A stretch of 64,000 nt of DNA from Xylaria sp. FL1777 (Eukaryota > Ascomycota > Sordariomycetes > Xylariales > Xylariaceae), in the NCBI GenBank assembly GCA_022578965.1, contig MU400589.1, forward strand, positions 146,591 to 210,590, read 5' to 3'. The position numbers and the translations under genes were made by a program. The notes beneath the pieces are model-generated. The model made no database searches, had not been told where the DNA came from, and worked only from the letters and a program-made list of their open reading frames with translations. This document shows positions 7,801 through 32,012 of the stretch, in pieces (position 1 is the stretch's first letter; every line of letters starts with the position of its first letter).

Positions 7801-8195
7801 ACGATTCTGAGAAACGAGAGTCGTTGGGCATGAGATCACAATTAGAACTAGTATTGCTATCTAGAAGAGGTATCAACATGCCATCATTGAAGAAGTCTAT
7901 ATAAGATGATGCCACTGGAATTGATGAGTGAAGAATAACTTACGAACAGAAAACATATGTTATTAGATCATAGACCCAGCTTCCAACTTACAGACAATTG
8001 CACTCATATAAAACCGACTTCTCGCCGGACAATACATAAAAGAGAGGAAGAAAATCAAACGACGACGAACCAAAGCAAGGCAACACGGTAACATCTAAGA
8101 GCCCTCTCCCTTTAAGCAAACAAGATTGAAGGGATAGAACGACAGCAACTGCAGCAACAACAAAGACAAGAGAAAGAGAAAAAAGATCCAGCATC
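4874..8195. other. Long gene-poor region, partly AT-rich
   Basis: I see no convincing gene. From about 4920 to 5660 the DNA is clearly richer in A+T than the flanks and is full of TAA/TTA, suggesting an old decayed repeat. Short open frames at 5663-5908 (TTG start), 6101-6442 (minus), 6584-6811 (minus, from an ATG at 6811) and 7503-7727 (minus, starting MPNSDTTETTFEKGNCHCG) have no recognisable domain or splice partners. The last 200 bases (7990-8195) are A/G-rich and are probably the leader of the deaminase gene. Confidence 0.45.
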
Positions 8196-8921
8196 ATGCC
8201 TCAATTCATCTTCATCGAACTACCTACATTCCGCATAAGAGACAAGAGCGGCAATGCCGTGTCCTTGTCGAACCGCCACCTAGCCCGCGTGATAACCCTG
8301 CTGCAATACGTGCGCAGCGGCCTCCGCACAAGCGGCGACTACCACCTAGACCTGTGCACATCGCTGCTCTTCGGCAACGGGGAGACAGATCTCTGGACGG
8401 CGCTCCACACGACGCCACAGGGCCACCACGCAGAGGAGAACCTCCTGCAGGCGTATTTCCAGAGCTTCGACTCGCCAGGCGCCTACCCGCTCGTGGACGC
8501 GATGCTGCTGAGCTCGAAGCCGTGCAGCAGCTGCATGGACTACTTCTCGCTGAACGGGAAGCACCTGCGGCCGCTGGACGACGGCATGGGCGCCGCCAGC
8601 ACGGCGGCCTTCCGCGCCAAGTTCACGCCGCGCGCCGACAAGACGTACACCCCCGTCTTCTACCTCGCGCGCTCGCTCAGCGCGGCCCAGCGCGAGCACC
8701 TCTGGCTGCAGCTGCGGCAGATGTGGACGGGCGCGCTGGGCGCCATGGGCATGGCGCTCGCCTTCTCGCCCGCCGTGGCCATGGGCGAGATGTACTACCT
8801 CTTCGGCGACGAGGCCGCGCCCTGGTACGCGCTCAACGGCCAGGAGAGCATGAGCGATGCCGAGATCGCCGAGGCCATCTCGCGCCAGGACCTGAGCCCC
8901 GCGTACTGGATCGGGAGGTGA
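8196..8921 (+). CDS. Zinc-dependent deaminase-fold protein (cytidine-deaminase superfamily)
   Basis: This is a single exon of 241 residues. The zinc-site signature of the deaminase superfamily is plain: H78-A79-E80 within QGHHAEENLLQAYF, then about 28 residues later SSKPCSSCMDYF with P109, C110 and C113. His and the two Cys would hold zinc, and E80 would be the proton shuttle. The N-terminal 70 residues and the C-terminal 110, including the Ala/Met-rich stretch ALGAMGMALAFSPAVAMG and an acidic end, match nothing I can name. The substrate could be a free nucleoside or base, or nucleic acid; it cannot be decided from the sequence. Base use is odd: from about 8400 to 8900 nearly every third codon position is G or C, unlike any neighbouring gene. 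That also creates long open antisense and +1 frames, which I treat as shadows. No signal peptide and no introns; transfer or strong codon selection are both possible. Confidence 0.75.
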   Translation: MPQFIFIELPTFRIRDKSGNAVSLSNRHLARVITLLQYVRSGLRTSGDYHLDLCTSLLFGNGETDLWTALHTTPQGHHAEENLLQAYFQSFDSPGAYPLVDAMLLSSKPCSSCMDYFSLNGKHLRPLDDGMGAASTAAFRAKFTPRADKTYTPVFYLARSLSAAQREHLWLQLRQMWTGALGAMGMALAFSPAVAMGEMYYLFGDEAAPWYALNGQESMSDAEIAEAISRQDLSPAYWIGR

Positions 8922-21848: not shown

Positions 21849-22045
21849 TACCTGAAGTGAATAGTATAGAGTGGCGGGTCTGCTTGTTTTTCGCTACCGC
21901 CATATAAGAGCTACCACGGTCAATTTCTTTTGCCTCTATCTCCTTAGATTAAGACACCTCCTTCTTCACCGTGATCTGCAGGCTTCTTCGCTCCCCTACA
22001 CTTCGTCCAGCCGTATATCGTTCCCGCATCGCCCACCCATTCACA

Positions 22046-22921
22046 ATGCTACAATCCATCGTCACCGCGGCGCTTCTCCTTGCCGCCAGCGTCCATGCTC
22101 ACTTCACTGTCCAGTATCCGGCAACTGTAGGCGCGTTCAACGACGACGAGGAGGGCCAGGCGCCATGCGGTGGCTATTCGCCCGACATCACCACCATCGA
22201 CACGGTTGACTTCCACGTCGGCGGCGACGCCATTGCCACCAAGTCTACACACCCCCAGACCACCTGGTTGTACCGCATCACTACTGAAGCTCTCTCCAAG
22301 AACAATTGGACCCAGGTTTACGGCATCGTCCAGCAAAGCGGCCCTGGCGAGTTTTGCGTCAACGCTGTCACTCTTCCTGCCGAGTACGTTGGACAGAAGG
22401 CTATTCTCAGCATTGTCGGTTCCGGTATCGACGGTGTTCTGTACCAGGTAAGTTGGGGGTTGTGCTGCATATTTACCCTCAAACCTGCACGTACACAACA
22501 TACGCTATGGTTCAATCGCACGAGAAAACGATCAATCCAAACCGGGGACCGGGGACCGGGGAAAAATTGGTGCATAGCAATACTAACGCTCCGCCTTTTC
22601 TTCTAGTGCTCTGCTCTTCACTTCGTCAACGGTACTACCGACACCCCATCGGCTTGCACCAACGGCACCGGCATTACAGCGTCGTACGACACAGATGCCA
22701 GCCTTAGTAGCATGGTCAGTAGCAGCACCGTCGGTAACGACAGCAGCAGCAGCAACAGCAGCAGTCCGAGCGAGACCTCGGCATCGACCACGACGTCATC
22801 GCCGTCTGAGACCTCAACTCCCAATGCTGCGCCTTCCCTCCACACCTTCGCGACAGGAGGCTTCGGAGCTCTCTTGACTACTGGGATCATGGTGTTGGCA
22901 GGATTCGCATTCATGGTATAA
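22046..22921 (+). CDS. X325/BIM1-like copper-binding GPI-anchored protein
   Basis: Two exons, 22046-22447 and 22607-22921, around a 159-nt intron (GTAAGT...CTTCTAG) give 238 residues. A signal peptide of 18 residues ends SVHA, so the mature protein begins with histidine (H19, HFTVQYPA). An N-terminal His of this kind is the copper-brace hallmark of LPMO-related proteins. The body matches the X325 family, which includes the copper acquisition factor BIM1: a Pro-Cys-Gly-Gly turn (QAPCGGY), FHVGGDA, GPGEFCVNAV and QCSALHFVNGT, with four Cys likely forming two disulfides. A Ser/Thr-rich stalk (from about residue 170) and a hydrophobic C-terminal end (GALLTTGIMVLAGFAFMV) indicate a GPI anchor. Known relatives bind copper at the cell surface and lack LPMO activity; that role is inferred here. 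The intron contains a run of three GGGG tracts. Confidence 0.88.
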
Positions 22922-26650: not shown

Positions 26651-29600
26651 CTAGATATGCACCTTGTCCATATCTCTTGCTAGGATATCCATGTTCACAT
26701 TTTCCTTCCCTACATGAGCCTGCGACGATTGGTAAATGTCTTCGGTATCTGGGATGTCGTCTTCCGTCCATGGTTCCGAGCCTGATATTTCCACAACCTC
26801 GTTATCGCCCCTATGCTCGGAAAACCCGATAATGGCGTCTCCATTGGGAAGCCGCACGTCGATTGCTTGGAGTGTCTCCGCGATATCGAGAAGGAGGACG
26901 TCCATAGGGCATATATATGCAACCTGCTTACGCTCGCTCCACGCTAATATGTGGCCGCACAGGCGACCATAAAGTCTGTCAACGATCCAAGCACCCGAGT
27001 CTCCAGGTATTCCAAGGGATACTCCACGTCCTTTCTGATTGGGAGGCGTCATGGGTTTGGATATGCCCGGTATTCTTCCACTGACTTGGTATGAATGGCT
27101 TGGTGAAGCACGTCCGTAAATCTTGACAGTCGTGAGGGCAGGTAGAATTCGACCAGCCTAGAACGGGTCAGCTGTTTCTTGGCAGGATGATAAAGACGTC
27201 TATCTGGTCTTTGGGCCATACCTGTGAACCGCTCGTGCGAGCCACGCATTGAACGTCTAGTCCGGGTAAAGATTTTACGGGAGCTACCTCCACCGGCTGT
27301 AAGTGATCCAAGGTCAAAAACCGGTGATCTCCAACCGTGACTGGCGGAAACAGATTTTTATCTGGCAGTCTATCATCTTGGAACTCGAATAAAGCCCAGT
27401 CAATCTCGTGGATAAGGTTATTTTCAGTTCTCCTTCGAATCCCAGAGGAGGCGTAGACTTCGCCGACGCTGTACGTATCAATATGATCCTACGGAAGGGT
27501 TGGTTAACATGAGGAAATCCGCCACAACATATCCTTTCGAAAAAGGACATCAAGAGGAAAGGGATTATGTACCTCATTTTCCGTTTCACGGGAGGGATAA
27601 AACCCGTCAGGGACGTCGTCAAGAGCAGGTTGTGTCACAATATATCCTGAAAAGCCTACATCAGCGGGGTGACATCTCCTGTCAGGTTCGACGCTTTGGA
27701 TCACCTCCGCTACCCCCGAATGAATATTATCGCCACGATCTTGGAACTGGATTCAGGGCTTTGACTAGTCCCAGGCCTTACATACCGTGTCCACATCCTG
27801 GTTCTATCCCGGGGATGTCGCCGGGTTGGTTGAACTCCTCGTCTTCATCTTCGTCCTCTTCGTCGCTAGTTATATCTGTCACGGAGTATTCGGATTCCGT
27901 GTCAGAGAACTCACAAGCGAAGTCGTCGCTGCTTTCAGAGGACGTCTCTCCTTCAGTGAGGTATGGCAAGTCTCGTGCTGATGCGCTGCTTCGAAAAGCG
28001 GGCGCACTTGCTCGTGTCGCAGTTCCTGGATATCCTTCAAATTCATCTGGCGTTTGAAAAGGACGATCAGGGTCATCTAACATATGGTGTACAGTCATTC
28101 CATAAGGCTTATCATCTACGATGATGACACCTCCTAAACTCACGGGTGGGAGATGTTTATCCCCAATCCAAGCTCCGATGCTCGCCCCATTTTGTGGCTT
28201 TTCTTGATAATCAGGATTAGCTGCAGGGATCTCCTGAGACTCATCATCATCGCTATAATTATGCTGACTCGAAGCATCTGGTCTGTCGCTCTTTGCCATA
28301 CTCCGCGTGGGACCTTTCCTTGATCGTACTACGGATCCTCGACATACTTTGAGTGATATATTGGTTGTTGTGCCGTCAAAAAGAATACCTAACTTCTTAT
28401 TCAATATGGCGCGTACTTTGTTGACAGAGGTGCAGACAACTAGCACAGTCGGTGTGGTTTTCTGAGGGGACTCGCCGATTGATTCGAGCGATATTTCAAC
28501 TGATTCTGGGTGCTTCCGATAGAAATGACGTAGAGCTAGATTAATTTGCGGCATCAAGATCTCATTCCACTGTTCGACAATATCCGCCGGTAGTGGAATT
28601 TGAGGATAAAGACGAAGCTTGGGTTGCTTCTCTTTTGACTTTTCAGGTTTAGTTTCGACTGGCTGCGCTATACAGAAGTCAGCATAATAAAATAATACTA
28701 CGCTCATCTTAGTGATCGTCTTACACTTAACAAGGGGTTCACGGTCGAGGGGAAAGGATTGTGACCGTTCCTGTGGTAGAACACGCTTTGTGTCATAACT
28801 TTGACTTTTCGGGGTAGCCATGGAAGATCCCGGCAACGACGTGGCGGAGGCTTTCGGTTTAACACTCTGGCGTGATGGTGCATGCACGAAATCATCACTC
28901 AGACGATCTTCAAGTTCGCTGACACTGTCCAAAATACAGCATGCTTCGAGGTAGCCGCTTGCTCGCGTCTGTACTTGTCTGATAATTTCGTCTCCATTTC
29001 CCGGTCGTGAGAGTTCAAGTTCAACCGCATTCCAGCATGCTTGTACGGCCCTCATGTATGGCGTGCCGCATCGAATGGCCAATTGACCAAGAACAGACTC
29101 TGGAACGCTTGGTGAGTCTAAGTTGGGTACGAGGTTCTCCAGTGTGGTCCATAGGCCGATAGAGACGAGAATCATGGCAAGAGAGTATAGATCTAGTGTT
29201 TTGGTATCGCTGTTGACGGCAAGCGGAGACTGGCTAGTGGTCCGTGGATCAAGTGGATGGCGATGTAGGAGAAACATGGAAGGAGAATTACTGGTCGAGG
29301 GTGAACTACGGAAGATATCGAAGGATGAAATTAGTGGACGCCTAATGTCTACTTCATTCATACCGGGCATGCTAGAGTCATTGCCCACCGTGTTGGCGAA
29401 GGAGATTGTGGAGCCGTCAAGGTTACCATGTGTGATTCCCCGGGAATGCATGTCAAAAACAGTATTGGCCAAGTTGTAGGCGAGACGAAATTTAGCCTCC
29501 AGAGTCGGTTCGAAGTTCGGCCGACTAAGCAAGTTGGTCAGCGTGCACAGATTGTCGACCGGGTGCTGCGTCAGGTTTTCGAATGTTACGGCGTTGAAGG

Positions 29601-30543
29601 TAGGAGGGAATGAGTAGATCAAGGCTAGCCTAGAACGTTCCATATCCTCATAATAACCCAGCAGAAGAGGCAATCCTATCCAGGCGCCAGAAGACCTAGA
29701 AGACTCTGTCTGAAGCCCTGCACTCAGCCTCTCAAAACGAGTCATCTCAGGCATGATTCCTGTTGCTGAGTAGATTGGATCAAACTCAGCGTATTCGACT
29801 AGAAGCGGAGACCATGGTCGTCCAGCAGGTCTGTGCGTCAGGTCGGCGTAGGCCTGCTTGCTCATGAAGAAGATTTCCTGAGGTCGATCAAGAGGGGGCG
29901 CACTCTCGGACAAAGACTGGGCCTGCAAAGACCGGAGGCTTAAGAGATTCTGGGGATCGATATGCTGAGGTGTCTGTATTCGCGTGGAACCGTACGGCCG
30001 CATATCTTCCATGGATGGTTTTGATGTAATTGACTTCCCCGAAGCGCCGGTAGTCATGGTTGCGGACGAACGAGTGCGGGACAGGTCACAAAGCGTGTCG
30101 ATCGAGGCAGTGAGGTCCTTTACAAGATCCTCGAACCGACCCTTATCCCACACTATCAGTGGAGCTTTTCGGTCTCCCGAGACCTTCTCGGCGGATTTTT
30201 CACTCCCAGTAGGCCGTTTCGAGGCAAGCCAGAGAGGCTCTGCTTCGGCTAGGATATCCTTGATGGTGGCCATGATACTCCCAACGAGGTCCGTCAGGCC
30301 GGCTTTATTGAGAGACTCGTCGATCTCGGCAGACTGGTTCGGGTCGGACCATTCCAACCCCCAGCTGACAAGCCTGTCCTTTTGAATGCGCAGTTTACGA
30401 TGTAATGCCTTGATCTCGGGATCATCGGCAGCCTGCACGGGCTCCTGAACGAAGTCGGAGGACTTCTTAGTGTCATTATAGAGTCTACTCAGCCGACGTT
30501 GGACACCCAGGGACATCCGACCCCGAGGAAGGTAAGACTCCAT
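26651..30543 (-). CDS. HeLo-like / pseudokinase / trypsin-like serine protease fusion, five exons
   Basis: Exons in transcript order are 30543-28725, 28667-27786, 27709-27573, 27488-27222 and 27157-26651, giving 1203 residues. Introns are 57, 76, 84 and 64 nt; the first is a multiple of three with no stop and is inferred from GTAAGA...CTGAC...TATAG. Residues ~15-155 resemble the fungal HeLo-type helical domain ([27 protein letters not shown]). Residues ~225-545 have kinase shape but lack catalysis: [11 protein letters not shown] (372-382) replaces HRDxxxxN, SSFDIF replaces DFG, and [13 protein letters not shown] matches the C-lobe DVWSLG. A Ser/Lys-rich linker follows. Residues ~770-1140 look like a trypsin-fold protease: [11 protein letters not shown] (H801), [10 protein letters not shown] (D976) and [10 protein letters not shown] (S1089) form a full triad. 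HeLo domains are membrane-toxic in fungal incompatibility, so a protease-gated cell-death or signalling role is inferred, not shown. Confidence 0.82.
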
Positions 30544-32012
30544 CGTGAGAGGTCAAGAAAGCGGCTAGCAGTAGTTGAATCCGGAAGATGTGGGGTTTTC
30601 GATATATCCCCCAATGTCAGTCAGATATGTTGAAGACGAGCACAGCTAGATAACGCAAGTCTCTCAAGCTAGCGTCATGATGCCAGCGACACAATTACAA
30701 TTAGATAAATATGTCGACGAAGAGGAGGAACTGGATTTCCAGAAGAGCACGACAGAAATAAACGCCTTGCGTTGAATTCGATCCGAGACAAGAACAAACT
30801 CGAAGAAACTCAGTAATACCGCTGCCTTGAGCAGGCAGTGGAACGTGGCTGTCTGTGGGTAATTTGGGTGCCTGGAATGGATGTCGGCGTTAGAGGCTCG
30901 GATGTTGAAGTGGATCGAGAGATGCTCATGTGGTAGGCCGCCGGTGGCGGTAGGCCGGGTAAGCGCTGTCTTGTTGCCCTTACTTTAGGTACTTAAGTAG
31001 GTACTTATGACAACTACCGCGTACCTGGGTATACTAGGCACTAGCATAATACATGCAGTACACGGGCAGCAGTACCTACGTAGAAGTTGGTATATAAGTG
31101 TGTGTGTACTGCATTTTGGTGTCGGGCAAATCGACGAAGGCTACCACCTATTAGAGAAATGGTAACCTAGTACCAACAAAATACTGGGTACATAATCCTG
31201 CTGCCTGATCTCCTTCGTCTTACCCGTCGACCAATAAGTACGGCATCCCTCATTTTCTCAATTGAGGTAGCACCAAGTAACCTATATGTAGTTTAGTGTG
31301 GTCGGTGGTAGCCTATCAATCTCCTCTTAACCCAACCAAGTTAGTGCCATTCACGATTTGACATCTGTAAAGCAGTCTGTGCCAGCTGCAATTATCTGTT
31401 GAATCTACCGTCCAAGCTAACGAGTTCTTCCAATATCATACTCTAGGTACAGATAAATATATTCTAACCGCCTGACGCAGAAGCAATAAAACCCCTGTAT
31501 ACCGGGTCTCACCAGTCTTGCGCAAACACTTAACGAGGCACCTCTTACTGAGCGCCAAGGTAGTGTGGTATACCTAGGTACTTATTTACACTTATCTATC
31601 TACCTAAGGAACAATGAGGCTGATCTATTTAAACTTTCAATCATAAAGTCATTCTTTAAGCATGCCTTGCATTGTCAATAGGCGCGGCAACAATGAGCAA
31701 AGGGATAAACAATGTTAGTAACATAGCCAACAATGTTCAATAAAATAATACACACTGTTCCACAAACAACCAACATCCGCTCCCTTTGTTAGATCTCTAA
31801 GCTGTTGAAGACCAATGAATATTATTACCCCTGGCAGCAAGATTTAAAAAATCTTATATTTATATTGGTATATCTCTTCCGTAGTTGTCTCTCTTTCCTT
31901 GGTCTTCAGTGAACACAGATATCGAGCAGCAAAAGGCGACGACAGCAACCTTGGCATTACTAGAACAAGTCTTCCGAATCTCTTCGATTGAGATTTGCCG
32001 TCACCAAATACC
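30544..32012. other. Intergenic, upstream of the HeLo-protease gene
   Basis: The promoter side of the minus-strand fusion gene. Rich in TAGGTAC/TACCTA motifs (near 30985-31080 and a perfect TACCTAGGTA at 31571-31580). No gene is seen. Confidence 0.4.

Follow-up and report, generated by a model that had tools for sequence, protein, structure and literature searches.

Most of what is known about HeLo domains (Pfam PF14479) comes from pathways of cell death and incompatibility, and in HET-S the N-terminal segment is the part of the protein that inserts into the membrane. In the MLKL proteins of animals and plants a helical domain is followed by a pseudokinase, and MLKL is not known to carry a protease. 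A protease and a death-type domain are functionally linked in fungal HET-Q1/HET-Q2 and RCD-1, where the gasdermin and the protease, which is of the subtilisin type, are two separate proteins. The gene described here lies in a 64,000 nucleotide (nt) stretch of Xylaria sp. FL1777 (contig MU400589.1, positions 146,591 to 210,590), designated the window, and encodes a single protein with a HeLo domain, a pseudokinase and a C-terminal half resembling S1 serine proteases. Judged from predicted protein sequences, this unusual domain order is real and widely conserved.

The protein has the same Pfam HeLo domain as HET-S and HELLP, with a score above the cut-off, but its N-terminus is hydrophilic instead of hydrophobic and a pseudokinase and a protease follow. 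It has the helical domain and pseudokinase in common with MLKL, although the matches listed from the PDB by sequence included no chain of MLKL, and it differs from HET-Q1/HET-Q2 and RCD-1 in that one protein carries both a HeLo domain and an S1-like protease. The reading that we favour, with about even confidence, is that of an intracellular protease kept under regulation and built on a HeLo–pseudokinase scaffold, not a self-contained killer.

Gene structure and conservation of the domain order

The minus-strand gene, with its start at 30543 and its stop at 26651 (26651..30543; all features of the gene given below are on this strand), was confirmed as genuine. Five coding exons (30543-28725, 28667-27786, 27646-27573, 27488-27222 and 27157-26651) are separated by introns of 57, 139, 84 and 64 nt, all with GT...AG boundaries, and the frame, in keeping with the deposited protein and the orthologues, is open throughout the resulting 1182 residues, whose numbering is used here. 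P0001, the 1201-residue protein deposited for this contig of Xylaria sp. FL1777, confirms the gene. An uninterrupted frame of 924 residues (27778..30552) spans the HeLo domain, the pseudokinase and the mid domain and extends beyond His801, so that joining the HeLo domain to His801 requires only the splicing of the in-frame 57-nt intron (28668..28724). This stretch was kept in the deposited model, and was taken to be an intron because 0.88-0.97 of the 116 aligned sequences have gaps at these positions. Intron 2 ends at 27647 in both P0001 and the orthologue P0002, giving the length of 1182 residues. The start, stop and single-protein gene proposed in the first-pass annotation were borne out by the 924-residue frame, P0001 and the orthologues, as were its five exons, but its Asp976 and Ser1089 became Asp955 and Ser1068 after corrected splicing, His801 being unchanged. 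The query for the Pfam scan, the homologue search and one PDB sequence search was a 1213-residue model with 31 surplus residues in exon 3. RNA folding near the start codon showed nothing unusual (z 0.51).

Of the 7991 candidates scored in the homologue search, 813 proteins had an expect value (E) of up to 1e-3, and the results rest on the best 120 of the 813. Nearly all of these listed matches (117 of 120) extend over at least 95% of the query, with identities from 96% down to about 55%, which is beyond what chance would give. The named matches belong to the Sordariomycetes (Xylariales, Sordariales, Coniochaeta, Colletotrichum and others). Most of the deposited records are labelled hypothetical protein, and some carry the name "het-s domain protein" or "HET-s/LopB domain protein". 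The 120 matches and the spliced model, which is the same gene as P0001, made up 121 rows, and removal of five gave the alignment of 116 sequences. The possibility of two separate genes, or of an annotation artefact, was considered and thought unlikely, because the HeLo domain and His801 lie in one frame and the order of the triad is kept in 117 of the 120 listed HeLo-bearing matches, the orthologues themselves being predicted proteins.

Mean pairwise identity in the 116-sequence alignment was 0.82 for residues 1-35, 0.81 for the HeLo domain, 0.72 for the pseudokinase, 0.77 for the mid domain and 0.76-0.85 for four protease blocks. Lower values were found for residues 161-220 (0.50), 551-620 (0.27), 726-758 (0.44), 806-886 (0.49) and 963-998 (0.40) and for the C-terminal tail (0.31). 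Domain identity between species, the only comparison made, is thus high, although conservation of the whole family is overstated because the sample is its closest part. The strong conservation suggests a core gene. A second full-length copy was not found among the 11 matches inspected in the genome.

The pseudokinase and the protease half

The pseudokinase (residues 190-545, 28909..29976) is related to fungal HeLo-linked and DUF7580 kinase-like domains. It combines a kinase fold with the loss of catalytic residues, in agreement with the first-pass annotation. The sequence HGN (372-374, 29422..29430) replaces HRD, with Asn at residue 374 in 113 of the 121 rows and Asp in one, and SFD (407-409, 29317..29325), which had been taken as the counterpart of DFG, is largely conserved (Ser in 102, Phe in 120 and Asp in 118 rows). 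No lysine is conserved above 95% in residues 222-299 of the alignment. The match to DUF7580 (PF24476) was below the cut-off (15.8 vs 27 bits); this family was matched in 21 of 38 scanned proteins at E up to 1, the best value being 2.3e-4. Foldseek gave 1229 and 1104 matches at E up to 0.001, and the best 50 of each included the fungal pseudokinase Pan3; the structure searches listed kinases, pseudokinases and some unnamed entries in the viral library. A conserved stretch with a Thr-Pro site was seen in the consensus at residues 186-197 (window 29953-29988), in the linker that precedes the pseudokinase.

In the C-terminal half, the putative catalytic residues His801 (28084..28086), Asp955 (27399..27401, in EIDWALF) and Ser1068 (26996..26998, in GDSGAW) follow one another within conserved motifs, the order expected of the S1 family and the PA clan, in 118 of the 121 rows. 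His801 is present in all 121 rows, as is the adjacent His800, and the three rows that lack Asp955 and Ser1068 are proteins of 813-929 residues that end early. The serine-protease-like C-terminus of the first-pass annotation was therefore upheld at the level of sequence, but the trypsin-like specificity that it proposed was not. Six positions before the catalytic serine, 85 of the 116 sequences have Leu, 30 have Met and one has Ile, but none has Asp, so cleavage after Lys or Arg would not be expected.

An acidic insert (residues 806-886, 27829..28071) with a net charge of -21 and conserved S/T-x-x-D/E sites lies between the strands that carry the His and the Asp. Its core, FSDxES..S.TDITSDxE, is well conserved in the alignment and fits the consensus for sites of protein kinase CK2. 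The second structural model has 15 strands between residues 783 and 1091; the predicted local distance difference test (pLDDT) values of its blocks range from 28 to 89, the Asp lying in a region of about 48 and the Ser in one of 84.

Residues 621-725 (28312..28626), which had been counted as part of the linker, form a conserved α/β mid domain that was well modelled in two models, and a similar stretch occurs in two other genes of the genome, L022 and L042.

Relatives of the two halves in the same genome

The gene appears to join a HeLo–pseudokinase half to a mid-domain–S1-like protease half, since sequence relatives of each occur apart in the genome. Profile E-values for these relatives were computed over 185 preselected frames. 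The protease profile matched L043 (contig C58, 6e-10), L040 (C177, 2e-8), L018 (C177, 4.5e-8), L041 (C16, 1.5e-5) and L022 (C72, 0.012). These five have the protease motifs in common with the gene described here, but HeLo and kinase families were not found in their scanned frames. The mid-domain profile matched L022 (8e-5; hhalign 25%, E 8e-4) and L042 (C102, 9e-4), and in the other protease-half relatives the mid domain was seen by alignment only. The protease half aligned with L018 over 176 columns that include GDSGA (hhalign 73%, E 3e-5). L022, the only relative to reach a peptidase family, scored 28.7 and 26.1 bits for Pfam Trypsin_2 against a cut-off of 27.6; its best PDB sequence match was the serine protease SplF (E 1.3), and a PADLOC match to RT-Protease was weak (0.0055). 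L018 and L040 are neighbours on C177 and belong to the same protease family, with 33% identity over about 380 residues. The frame upstream of L018 has a zinc-finger-like Cys/His pattern by eye and no Pfam match.

In two of the relatives the catalytic serine is replaced, by Cys in L041 (GDCGAW; C16, 402800-407000), which ends in a transglutaminase-like domain, and by Leu in L043 (GDLGSW; C58, 26500-32500). These replacements, with the lack of a family match for the protease half, are what would be expected if this half were a non-catalytic binding domain and the whole protein a pure scaffold. We consider that a poor bet for this gene, in which 118 of 121 rows keep His, Asp and Ser, and with them the neighbouring residues of GDSGAW and DWAL. 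Sequence relatives of the protease half are found in at least five further genes of this genome, of which one also has a transglutaminase domain and two lack the catalytic serine, so that this half may be part of a fungal family, little studied so far, of proteases and pseudo-proteases that act inside the cell.

Relatives of the other half, HeLo and kinase-like genes without a protease, are L002 (C110) and L007 (C15), with HeLo scores of 115.3 and 52.3 bits that are stronger than that of the protein described here. The kinase-like domain is homologous to those of L002 (hhalign 96.6%), of L012 (C63, 97.3%) and of the second frame of L007 (profile E 1.3e-9); the HeLo and kinase-like domains of L007 lie in two frames that were assumed to be one gene. 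Unlike the present gene, L002 and L007 showed no protease in the surrounding 4.0 and 4.5 kb, where nothing matched below E 6. In L012 (about 7.3-8.1 kb on C63) a Pkinase match of 96.5 bits is followed in one frame by a DUF7580-like match of 26.5 of 27 bits.

The HeLo domain, regulation and gene neighbourhood

The HeLo-like N-terminus predicted by the first-pass annotation was found as a divergent HeLo domain (residues 36-160, 30064..30438), which scored 28.3 bits for PF14479 against a cut-off of 23.2 and has long helices in the models. PF14479 was listed in all 38 scanned proteins, the deposited form included, at E up to 1, with a best value of 5.3e-9. It is preceded by a conserved hydrophilic segment (residues 1-35, 30439..30543) that has a net charge of +3 in this protein and was modelled at low confidence. 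Hydropathy, measured as the best 19-residue Kyte-Doolittle mean within the first 45 residues, averaged -0.21 over the 121 rows, so the hydrophobic start of a HeLo protein was not found here, and the highest value, 1.25, came from P0112, which has a different annotated start. Nine HeLo matches were found in the genome, two of them partial; of the seven others, which were examined for hydropathy, six start with a hydrophobic segment (1.23-2.04), and the seventh, L004, gave 0.34 and may have a misannotated start. A hydrophilic N-terminus speaks against a HET-S-like pore, yet not against lipid binding.

These results bear on the proposal of the first-pass annotation that the protein is a self-contained sensor-protease-executioner, which would cut its own linker and release a HeLo–pseudokinase half to damage membranes in the manner of MLKL or HET-S. 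The proposed set of domains is indeed present in one protein, with the HeLo score above the Pfam cut-off, the helical domain before the pseudokinase as in MLKL, and a conserved triad; the fungal examples named above, however, keep the protease and the pore protein separate, and strong conservation between species, as seen in the listed matches, seems unlike that of an incompatibility locus. The slightly basic N-terminus, +3 over 35 residues, could bind acidic lipids, but there is no hydrophobic stretch of the kind seen in six of the seven other HeLo proteins examined in the same genome, leaving the suggested membrane toxicity unsupported. As for a conserved site of autocleavage in the linker, a short GPS at residues 572-574 alone stood out, with its positions kept in 0.90, 0.76 and 0.93 of the 116 sequences (GSS in this gene); the longer pattern SLxG[PS]S occurs in 50 of these sequences, and the linker is otherwise poorly conserved. 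Cleavage within residues 550-770, as had been suggested, likewise lacks support, residues 551-620 being the least conserved segment and residues 621-725 a conserved domain. Nothing found here favours an executioner over a regulated protease, and we regard the former as quite improbable.

The regulated protease that we favour would operate as follows. The HeLo–pseudokinase half would sense a signal and assemble the protein, acting as scaffold and regulator without phosphotransfer. The mid domain would keep the protease restrained, as would the acidic insert, possibly phosphorylated by CK2. Assembly or phosphorylation, the presumed trigger, would then free a catalytically active protease to cut a target protein, should one exist. 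A more novel and rather unlikely reading is a one-polypeptide initiator, in which induced assembly of the HeLo–pseudokinase part switches on the built-in serine protease by analogy with proximity-activated caspases. If it were true, a death-fold domain and a dead kinase would form the activation platform, and not the killer, within a signalling protease conserved in fungi. Strong conservation of a HeLo–pseudokinase–protease would point to a core, non-polymorphic function for HeLo as well, and would connect death-fold platforms with fungal proteolysis in a way that is open to direct test.

Several observations weigh against a regulated protease, 1) the region with the putative Asp was modelled at low confidence (block pLDDT about 48-69), 2) the protease half was matched neither in Pfam or NCBIfam nor by any PDB sequence, and the orthologue P0002 was also without a peptidase family, 3) the likely Asp of L018 (VTDWILIS, by eye) was not aligned with Asp955 in two alignments, 4) the protease fold can serve non-catalytically, as L041 and L043 lack the catalytic serine, and 5) the HeLo domain scores only modestly in Pfam, and its profile matched no other HeLo in the fetched loci at E 0.01. 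No HeLo or protease structure was listed in the structure searches, which is uninformative as kinases fill the lists. The PDB sequence searches gave nothing below E 0.8, the nearest being a bacterial regulator (0.83), the CLK1 kinase (1.6) and a photosystem chain (2.2), and the search with the protease half alone had no match. For P0002, NCBIfam had no match and PADLOC only a weak one to MkoA (0.0086).

The identifiable neighbours of the gene encode a class I (Arg) tRNA synthetase, a ferric reductase, VIT1, a phosphoesterase, a CBM21 protein and an APH-type kinase, all housekeeping or metabolic families, and NLR or HET families were not seen among the eight neighbouring frames scanned. This setting, the high conservation and the presence of Pan3 among the Foldseek matches would suit a housekeeping scaffold and protease, active in mRNA turnover, stress or development, in which the HeLo fold is reused for protein contacts only. 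Nothing specific stands against this explanation, although Pan3 was one of many near-tied matches, and we think it unlikely. Elsewhere in the window, positions 8130-8918 of the plus strand gave a weak match below the cut-off to the AID/APOBEC-like deaminase family SNAD4 (18.1 of 27 bits). A short secreted-looking protein encoded at 21953-22606 of the plus strand has a signal-like start followed by His and may resemble the Bim1/X325-type copper proteins.
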